Source: Deltaproteobacteria bacterium (GTDB taxonomy: Bacteria > Desulfobacterota > DSM-4660 > Desulfatiglandales > Desulfatiglandaceae). Taken from it: DNA of 64,000 nt. Positions 10,332 through 42,761 of this stretch are shown here, piece by piece; the stretch's first letter is position 1, and every line of letters starts with the position of its first letter. The position numbers and the translations under genes are program-made. The notes under the pieces are model-generated. The model had not been told where the DNA came from and ran no database searches. It was given only the letters and a program-made list of their open reading frames with translations. The stretch is from the NCBI GenBank assembly GCA_021737785.1, contig JAIPDI010000001.1, positions 1 through 64,000 of the forward strand, in the 5' to 3' direction.

Positions 10332-11105
10332 TCAATGCCCGGCGAACATAAGTCTCATCCCGATGAGAAAAATGATCATGAGCACGATAATCCTAAATAA
10401 GTCTTGCGAGAATCGCTTGTTCAGGAGATTCCCAAACCATCCCCCAAGAATGATGATGGGAGACATCGCAGCCACCAACAAGGCAACCTCGGAACTAATA
10501 ATGCCGATTTTTAAATAAGCACCTAACTTGAGAACATTGAGAACAGCAAAAAATGAGACGAGGGTCCCAACAAAGGCCCTCTTGTCTACCGGCTGCTGAA
10601 GCAGATAAATGGACATGACCATGCCCCCGGCATGGATGACGGTGCTTGCCGTTCCTCCGAGAAATCCGAAAAGAAGCGTCACGTATCTATTGGTATTGGC
10701 GGACTGCCCGACCCGTTTGAGACCCTTGTCTTTCCCCTTAAAGACAGCTTTACTTATGTGGTAGGCGGAAAAGAGTATCGCCACAACGCCCACACTGAAT
10801 TTAAACATTGTGTCTGGAACCATTTTGATAATGATGACACCGACGAACACACCCATTACAGCAGGCGGGATGAGAGTGCCCAGCTCCTTTTTGTTCCACT
10901 CTCTCCAATAGTTCCTGAGCCCTACCACGTCAGAGATCAACATCGCCGGCGCTCCCAACCCCAATGCCAGCTTGGCGGGAAATACCAAGGCGAGAAAAGG
11001 AAGGAGGAAAATTCCCGCTCCGATGCCGACACTGTTCTTGATTATTGCTGAACCGAACACGGCCAGAGCGACAAGCGCTATTTCGTTATAGCCAAGGCCT
11101 ACCAT
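10332..11105 (-). CDS. TSUP-family transporter (TauE/SafE-like)
   Basis: A 257-residue integral membrane protein with about eight helices and the TauE/SafE pattern: an N-terminal half with VGIGAGIFLLPFL and a second half with GFLGGTASTVIHAGG. Family members export sulfite, sulfoacetate or other sulfur-containing organic anions; the substrate here is not known. The Shine-Dalgarno sequence at ATG 11105 is weak. It follows a second TSUP gene on the same strand. Confidence 0.88.
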   Translation of the reverse strand: MVGLGYNEIALVALAVFGSAIIKNSVGIGAGIFLLPFLALVFPAKLALGLGAPAMLISDVVGLRNYWREWNKKELGTLIPPAVMGVFVGVIIIKMVPDTMFKFSVGVVAILFSAYHISKAVFKGKDKGLKRVGQSANTNRYVTLLFGFLGGTASTVIHAGGMVMSIYLLQQPVDKRAFVGTLVSFFAVLNVLKLGAYLKIGIISSEVALLVAAMSPIIILGGWFGNLLNKRFSQDLFRIIVLMIIFLIGMRLMFAGH

Positions 11106-11244
11106 GGAGCGGATTCAAAGCCTCTTTTTTCGTATCAAAGCAAGTGGCAGCATATTCAACCCCTCCTGCAAATAATCGAGAGAAAATACCTCCCCCTTAA
11201 CCCATTCATATGAAAGGATGGCTATCTCGTTCGCCCGGGATGAC

Positions 11245-12000
11245 TCAAAATATCCTGAATAGATTTATAATGAGGGAGATAAGACCTGTAATAAAAATCA
11301 GTGATAGGGATATTTTCATAAACAGGAATGAACTCACCCTATTAAATATAACATTGCCAATATAAAACCCAATTATTCCTGCAGGGACCAATGACAAGCT
11401 CTCAATTACGCGAGAATTTGTTGCTATGCCCGCAAGTACGTATAAGATAATAGACAGGGTGCCGGTAAGTAGGAAAAGCACGGCAATTGTGCCCCTGAAT
11501 ATCTCTTTTGGCCACTTCTGGTTAGACAGGAATAAAATGAGAGGAGGTCCGCCCATACCAACCGCTGCACACATGACACCGCTAGCGAACCCTACGCCTA
11601 ACGATGCCATGGCCTCCCTTTTAATGGGCATATGATACCCCATTAACAAGAGAATGGAAAAGATGATAGAAATGAAGGCAATGGCAAGACTCGTTCCAGA
11701 AGACGCCACCATATAAAGAATGTACGTTCCGAGAGGGACGCCGAGGATAGCAGGAATTATTAGGGGCAAGGCTCGGGCGGCATATATATGCCTTCTGGCA
11801 TGGTAGACGACGAAAAGCAAATTGGCGATACCGGTAAACATTAGAATAATTACGACTCGTTTCGGTTCCAAGAAAAGAACAAGTGTAGGACCAGCGAGCA
11901 ACCCCGCACCAAAGCCGGTCATCCCTTGAATTATACTTGCGAATAAAATGACAAAAAAAATGAAGGTCCAGTAGTAACTCCAAAGAGGGAGGCTTTCCAT
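11245..12000 (-). CDS. TSUP-family transporter (TauE/SafE-like)
   Basis: A 251-residue membrane protein of the same family as its downstream neighbour: GMTGFGAGLLAGPTLVLF near residue 27 and GFASGVMCAAVGMGGPPLIL near residue 137 are the two repeated half-motifs. The two neighbours are clearly diverged paralogs rather than a recent duplication. AGGGAAATTTA precedes ATG 12000. It lies 69 bp behind the thiolase gene and may belong to that operon. Confidence 0.88.
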   Translation of the reverse strand: MESLPLWSYYWTFIFFVILFASIIQGMTGFGAGLLAGPTLVLFLEPKRVVIILMFTGIANLLFVVYHARRHIYAARALPLIIPAILGVPLGTYILYMVASSGTSLAIAFISIIFSILLLMGYHMPIKREAMASLGVGFASGVMCAAVGMGGPPLILFLSNQKWPKEIFRGTIAVLFLLTGTLSIILYVLAGIATNSRVIESLSLVPAGIIGFYIGNVIFNRVSSFLFMKISLSLIFITGLISLIINLFRIF

Positions 12001-41404: not shown

Positions 41405-41640
41405 AGTGGGTGAAAATCTGGAATCGTGAGAAGCGCTCAGCACCGGTATCGGCAATGGGGTGGCGCTCCCCCAAACCGTATCGACGGCCTGAGGGAGCTT
41501 ATGGTAGTGGTGGGTTCTCTGAAACCGGGATTGATTTCAACTCACCGGAGCGCAGGCCGGCAAATGTGATTTTTCTGATTCTTACGCCCAGCAACCATCC
41601 CGGCGTTCAACTGGAAAGGGTTGCGTGTTCCCGCTGTAGC
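41405..41640 (+). pseudogene. Decayed PTS EIIA type-2 domain fragment
   Basis: Three frames together spell an EIIA(Ntr/Mtl/Fru)-like domain. STGIGNGVALP (about 41438-41470) is the segment just before the phosphorylated His; NRIDGLRELMVVVGSLKPG (41474-41529) and GIDFNSPERRPANVIFLILT with PSNHPGVQLE (41528-41615) follow. One-base deletions near 41473 and 41529 break the frame, and the first falls at the active-site His codon. No start or upstream partner gene remains. EIIA domains of this kind occur alone (PtsN) or fused to transporters. Confidence 0.7.
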
Positions 41641-41660
41641 CGGATTCAGGTTTCACAATA

Positions 41661-42698
41661 TCACAGCTTGGCCCGCCACCCAGGCTCTTCCATCATCGGC
41701 TGAAAAAACATGATATAGGGCCCCCGGATCAGATGGGCCATAACGCCGTCGTCGTGAATTTTCCGGATCCCCGTATTGACCAGGACCTTGGCAAATCCCA
41801 ATTGAGCCAGTTCGGGCGCATCCCACTCACTGTGAATCAGGTACTCGGGAGGGCTGGGATATGCCTCAGGGGTCTTGAAAAGGGGTTTCGGGTCATCCGG
41901 CGGGTTGGCCCCCAGGGTTTCCAGGGACTGGCCCATGGATTTGGGATCCATCATAAAGCTGCCGAGGGCGCAGACGCCCATCTGCTTCAGGAGCATATAC
42001 CCCAGAAAACCTGTGGAATCGGAGAGTGCCTCCATGGTGGCAACCGCCCCTTCCTCAAACGCTTTTTCAGTGCCGGGACGGACCGTGTGCTCGGCTATGG
42101 CCACACAGCGCTGGGGGGTGGCAAAGCGAATAAAAGGCTTCTGCTCCTGCATGTCTTTGCCCAGGTCGGTGATCTGGCCCATGGATCGGATCGGGGGCAT
42201 CTTGGCCTTGACCACCCGGTACACGGGCTCCCACGGCCCTTCGATCACCATGGAAAGACAGCTCCCGCAGAGTTCGAAGATCCGCTTGAACTGTTGCTGA
42301 TGAAATTCATCGTGATCCTGCCACCGGTTCCACATGGTGTACTGGTAATTGCGGAGAGGGTTCAATTCCTTTTCCATGTGGACCTTTCCGCCCCCGAAAC
42401 GACCGGCCAGGGGGAGGATCCCGGTCTGGATATTGGCCTGAAATCCCACAAATCCGGGATGAGTGGCCGTGGTGATGCAGACCCGGGGGCCGACCTTCTT
42501 CATGATACGGAAGCTCTCCTCATTGTTGGCGACCTTGGACATGTTAAGCGCCAGATAAATAGGGCTTTCAGGTTCGGGTTCGGCCGCCCCGGCCCGCATC
42601 GCGCCCATTCCGACCCCGGACAGCCCGATCGCCCCGGCCGCCAGGGCCGCTGTTCTCATAAAATTCCTGCGATTTATACCCGTGTCAATCTTATGCAT
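41661..42698 (-). CDS. sor: Sulfur oxygenase reductase homolog with Tat signal peptide
   Basis: A 345-residue protein. Residues 1-39 form a twin-arginine signal (NRRNFMRTAALAAGAIG). The rest matches archaeal and bacterial sulfur oxygenase reductase, as in PIYLALNMSKV, VGPRVCITTATHPGFVGFQ and GILPLAGRFGGGK. All active-site residues known from Acidianus SOR are present with the same spacing: Cys74 (C31 there), iron ligands His129, His133 and Glu157 (H86, H90, E114), and Cys144, Cys147 (C101, C104). SOR converts sulfur with O2 to sulfite, thiosulfate and sulfide and is normally a cytoplasmic 24-mer. Export by Tat would place this one in the periplasm. AAAGGAGG precedes ATG 42698. It is transcribed alone, divergent from the tandem Usp gene. 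Confidence 0.88.
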   Translation of the reverse strand: MHKIDTGINRRNFMRTAALAAGAIGLSGVGMGAMRAGAAEPEPESPIYLALNMSKVANNEESFRIMKKVGPRVCITTATHPGFVGFQANIQTGILPLAGRFGGGKVHMEKELNPLRNYQYTMWNRWQDHDEFHQQQFKRIFELCGSCLSMVIEGPWEPVYRVVKAKMPPIRSMGQITDLGKDMQEQKPFIRFATPQRCVAIAEHTVRPGTEKAFEEGAVATMEALSDSTGFLGYMLLKQMGVCALGSFMMDPKSMGQSLETLGANPPDDPKPLFKTPEAYPSPPEYLIHSEWDAPELAQLGFAKVLVNTGIRKIHDDGVMAHLIRGPYIMFFQPMMEEPGWRAKL

Positions 42699-42761
42699 CA
42701 CATGCCTCCTTTCCGTTACCGCGTTTATCGTTCGGCTTTCCTGCCGGAGAATTCCGGGCCT

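Follow-up and report, generated by a model that had tools for sequence, protein, structure and literature searches.

The 64,000-nucleotide stretch of a Desulfobacterota genome analyzed here (the window) carries a gene whose product is, by its sequence, a bona fide sulfur oxygenase reductase (SOR). The enzyme domain is preceded by a predicted twin-arginine (Tat) signal peptide that is conserved in a group of relatives and that we consider real. The coordinates of the gene and its parts are collected in Table 1.

Table 1. Features of the SOR gene, with positions counted along the window
Feature	Position	Strand	Basis
SOR coding sequence, 345 aa + stop	41661..42698	-	Intact ORF
SOR domain PF07682, residues 47-342, with H129, H133, E157, C74, C144, C147	41673..42560	-	Pfam match and alignment
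Predicted twin-arginine signal peptide, residues 1-39	42582..42698	-	By-eye placement of the cleavage site after A38 or A39
Hydrophobic region of the signal peptide, residues 16-34	42597..42653	-	Alignment, sequence rule
Tat motif NRRNFMR, residues 9-15 (RR codons 42666-42671)	42654..42674	-	RR kept in 7/7 tagged homologues, counting the window protein
AGGAGG ribosome-binding site, 6 nt ahead of ATG	42705..42710	-	Sequence; L003 with equal context

Family membership and active site

The Pfam model PF07682 covered its domain end to end with an E value of 1.1e-142 and 474.7 bits (curated cut-off 25), and a phmmer search of the PDB with the window protein returned SORs only, with 6qpa at the top (E 7.6e-96). 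The protein is a member of the PF07682 family; membership in the NCBIfam sulfur oxygenase/reductase equivalog NF047630 is not claimed, its 317 bits lying below the cut-off of 400. Alignment with solved SORs placed the iron ligands H86, H90 and E114 of the Acidianus enzyme and its active-site cysteines C31, C101 and C104 (PMC9529111, PMC7398979) opposite H129, H133, E157, C74, C144 and C147 of the window protein, exactly the positions given in the initial annotation, and these catalytic residues showed no variation in any full-length alignment row. Phylogenetically, the window protein fell inside the SORs, in a deltaproteobacterial clade beside the Thioalkalivibrio and archaeal enzymes. Family match, aligned active-site residues and tree position together uphold the earlier identification as a genuine SOR rather than a non-SOR protein. 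An AlphaFold2 monomer model built from a 15-row alignment was poor (pLDDT 39.6) and was left unused. Rfam gave no match near the SOR gene, and a plasmid search likewise returned no match.

The signal peptide and its origin

Residues 1-39 (MHKIDTGINRRNFMRTAALAAGAIGLSGVGMGAMRAGAA) follow the standard twin-arginine arrangement ahead of the enzyme domain, with the layout MHKIDTGI-NRRNFMR-TAALAAGAIGLSGVGMGAM-RAGAA/EPEP, where the slash marks the judged cleavage site. The twin arginines, the hydrophobic stretch and the small-residue cleavage region are kept in six relatives from other assemblies (L003, L004, L005, L018, L019 and L016), in agreement with the Tat signal reported in the initial annotation. 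On the TIGR01409 Tat-signal model the window protein scored 16.6 bits, 0.1 bit under the cut-off of 16.7, with 20.9-25.9 bits for L003, L018, L019 and L016, 16.7 for L005 and 16.2 for L004, while the three untagged relatives searched (L006, L007 and L012) gave no match. A stricter sequence rule passed every tagged row except L004, whose hydrophobic stretch contains an arginine, and none of the untagged rows. Shuffling of the window N-terminus yielded a rule-based Tat signature in 97 of 100,000 shuffles, and a chance origin is considered negligible because the signal is conserved across relatives.

Between the window and four more distant tagged relatives, dN was 0.46-0.75 in the signal compared with 0.02-0.12 in the enzyme core. 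The comparison with L003, which belongs to the same genus, gave a dN of 0.11 and a dS of 0.59 for the signal peptide, which argues for purifying selection on it; the dN/dS of the core was about 0.03 (0.021/0.65). Whether the N-terminus might be an unlikely start that homologues lack had been posed as a check in the initial annotation; the extension proved to be conserved, though confined to one subgroup. Other explanations for the extension were rejected, namely a wrong start codon (by the AGGAGG ribosome site together with the conserved N-terminal extension), a contig chimera (by the occurrence of tagged SORs in separate assemblies) and a lipoprotein signal (by a cleavage site that contains no cysteine).

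Other close relatives, L006-L012, share 70-83% core identity with the window protein; they begin with the enzyme domain or close to it and carry no Tat signal. In a maximum-likelihood tree of the core alone, six tagged rows stood on one side of a branch with support 91/87, nested within a clade of untagged deltaproteobacterial SORs. Since the tagged proteins sit inside this untagged clade, the simplest reading is that the tag was probably gained once, with moderate support: dropping the partial row together with the most remote ones lowered the support of the tagged branch to 78/8, and with the reduced row set a grouping of the tagged rows with the untagged L006 was not rejected (p 0.41). A history with loss of the tag from L006, or with several changes, is therefore conceivable. 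SOR genes are rare, with 5/85 genomes of the class and 9/395 sampled genomes of the phylum carrying one; the survey for tagged SORs covered the Desulfobacterota and one pattern-based scan of genome contigs, which finds close relatives only.

Host genomes and gene surroundings

The host genome encodes dsrA and dsrB (contig C7) as well as dsrD, and it carries the cytochrome bd genes cydA and cydB, while a COX1-family search of the genome for a haem-copper oxidase gave no match. The presence of dsrD alongside dsrAB indicates sulfate reduction over sulfur oxidation, short of proof. On the strength of these dsr genes, the cytochrome bd genes and the COX1 result, the host is most likely a sulfate-reducing anaerobe, and the earlier impression of an anaerobic organism stands. 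In Desulfovibrio, bd oxidases have been implied in O2 detoxification (PMC10591310). A Tat translocase is also encoded, with neighbouring tatA/B and tatC genes on contig C69 and a second tatC at C1:81443.

Among the genomes with a tagged SOR, 6/7 had dsrA above the cut-off together with dsrD. The same combination was found in 2/7 of the genomes of the untagged L006-L012 (G468 and G198), the remaining 5/7 being without dsrA above the cut-off; the dsrD search among untagged genomes covered those with any dsrA match (four have none), and for this contrast the numbers are too small and the genomes too related for statistics. Locus L025 of G198 encodes a SOR protein identical to that of L012.

The SOR gene of the window stands alone. 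One flank holds a nickel/cobalt transporter cluster together with genes for a DUF4198 protein and a porin-like protein, the other a divergent universal stress protein gene, and no sulfur-linked gene was found among these neighbours. Because the SOR gene aligns with that of L003 and its flanks do not, the gene has moved. Just past the 3' end of the SOR gene (window 41424-41730), 195 bp of a PTS-EIIA/antiporter-like gene are 91% identical to contig C4 of the host genome, where a SOR 3' remnant is located beside that gene (G000:C4:72860-73336, equivalent to L043 10861-11337); we read the shared piece as left by an earlier exchange or duplication of a segment. Broken or truncated SOR copies were present at L014 (3546-4013), L015 (740-1150), L016 (4251-4693), L028, L029 and L039, and in L016 the Tat signal is kept ahead of the C-terminal part of the enzyme with the frame lost. 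Judging from these copies, the SOR gene appears to be lost often. At L013 (732-2180) and L017 (1523-3106), a 5'-nucleotidase/metallophosphatase-type gene resembling the SoxB superfamily is located directly 3' of SOR.

Proposed role and comparison with known SORs

We consider it reasonably probable that a SOR acquired a Tat signal in one Desulfobacterota lineage consisting mostly of sulfate reducers, and that the exported enzyme provides O2-dependent protection in the periplasm. The Tat pathway passes folded proteins (PMC6708511), and characterized SORs, which are hollow 24-mers, require O2 and yield sulfite, thiosulfate and sulfide from S0 in their interior (PMC7398979, PMC9529111). The mature subunit of about 34 kDa would fold and bind iron in the cytoplasm and be exported as a monomer or small oligomer, with assembly following in the periplasm, because the 24-mer of about 850 kDa is presumably too large for Tat. 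Signal peptidase would cut near residue 38-39, leaving an N-terminus close to that of the untagged SORs. Tat would suit, better than Sec, an enzyme that depends on iron and free thiols held in a closed pocket. On arrival of O2, polysulfide or S0 would arise where sulfide meets O2, and the periplasmic SOR would use O2 to turn it into sulfite and sulfide, removing both O2 and zero-valent sulfur ahead of their entry into the cytoplasm and thereby serving as a defence at oxic-anoxic edges. In a sulfate reducer that has only a bd oxidase, such a periplasmic enzyme would be of most use by removing O2 and polysulfide. More tentatively, the exported subunits might form a periplasmic nanocage, a hollow 24-mer outside the cytoplasm that uses up O2 and polysulfide at the surface of the sulfate reducer and acts as a cofactor-free O2 shield run on sulfur from the cell's own sulfide. 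Anaerobic sulfur disproportionation, which the initial annotation had offered as another role, is not supported, as characterized SORs need O2.

Protection would be one of several possible roles, and its main rival is a nutritional one, in which the exported SOR mainly supplies periplasmic sulfite and thiosulfate as electron acceptors (or detoxifies S0) and is not concerned with O2 defence. Genes of the Sulf_transp family (YeeE/YedE-type, PF04143) adjoin SOR both in the tagged L005 (7188-7990) and in the untagged L007 (2587-3675), an arrangement that plausibly connects the enzyme's function with sulfur uptake; two adjacent genes of the TauE/SafE (sulfite exporter) family are located at 10335-12000 of the window, 30 kb from SOR, and the host has dsrAB. 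However, the window SOR itself has no adjoining sulfur gene, and the reaction would still require O2, to which an anaerobe is exposed only occasionally, leaving this role rather unlikely.

It is improbable that the exported protein is something other than a working 24-mer SOR, either a monomer or small oligomer or an enzyme that has shifted to a different but related sulfur activity dependent on iron. The chimney residues M130, F133 and F141 of Acidianus correspond to M173, I176 and M183 in the window protein, which are hydrophobic with both phenylalanines replaced, and this change together with the score below the equivalog cut-off would fit such a shift; yet the first phenylalanine position (F133) is isoleucine in untagged relatives too, as it is in the Thioalkalivibrio SOR, and the invariance of the catalytic residues likewise argues against it. 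Slightly less probable still is a twin-arginine peptide that does not export, being a relict or a membrane tether, with the enzyme at work in the cytoplasm, as other SORs are. The search for TatC gave no match in 2/7 tagged genomes, G058 (a single contig, 90% complete) and G463, both of which may be incomplete and do have TatA-family genes, and the Tat model score of the window protein is borderline, but the twin arginines, hydrophobic core and small-residue end are still in place in independent assemblies although the peptide has otherwise diverged heavily, and the host has tatA and tatC. That the gene is decaying with little function left in the lineage is very improbable, as its rarity within the class and the broken copies (L014, L015, L016, L028, L039 and the C4 remnant in the same genome as the window) are set against an intact window copy with a core under a low dN/dS.

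If export occurs as predicted, the conserved signal places an O2-dependent sulfur enzyme at the cell envelope of mostly sulfide-making organisms. The tagged SOR suggests a way for sulfate reducers to meet oxygen and polysulfide, and it offers a clean test case for the formation of a large hollow oligomer after Tat export.

SOR genes of Desulfobacterota are already known: in Bohai Sea sediment, 33 of 39 metagenome-assembled genomes with SOR belonged to this phylum, community sor transcripts were up after sulfide addition, and the enzyme was called cytoplasmic (PMC12345210). Our literature search, with most subscription journals outside its reach, found no published report of a Tat-tagged SOR, and we regard the tag as the new part.

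None of the solved SORs compared has an export signal, and SOR is described as a cytoplasmic enzyme. The most distant comparison is the SOR of 9rdn, which together with L037 and L038 has the same catalytic residues as the window protein, but shares just 32% core identity with it and sits on a remote branch of the family, without a Tat signal. The SORs of Acidianus ambivalens (6qne/2cb2), A. tengchongensis (3bxv) and Sulfurisphaera tokodaii (6m35) share 41-44% core identity with it and have all equivalents of C31, H86, H90, C101, C104 and E114, whereas they come from archaeal thermophiles, their solved chains are without a Tat signal, and their chimney carries F133 and F141 in place of isoleucine and methionine. 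The Thioalkalivibrio SOR (6qpa), which comes from an aerobic sulfur oxidizer, is closer, with 49.5% core identity, the same iron ligands and the three active-site cysteines; unlike the window protein, its solved chain begins at the enzyme domain and is untagged. Closer still are the untagged deltaproteobacterial SORs L006-L012, which belong to the same clade at 70-83% core identity and from which the window protein is set apart by its Tat signal.
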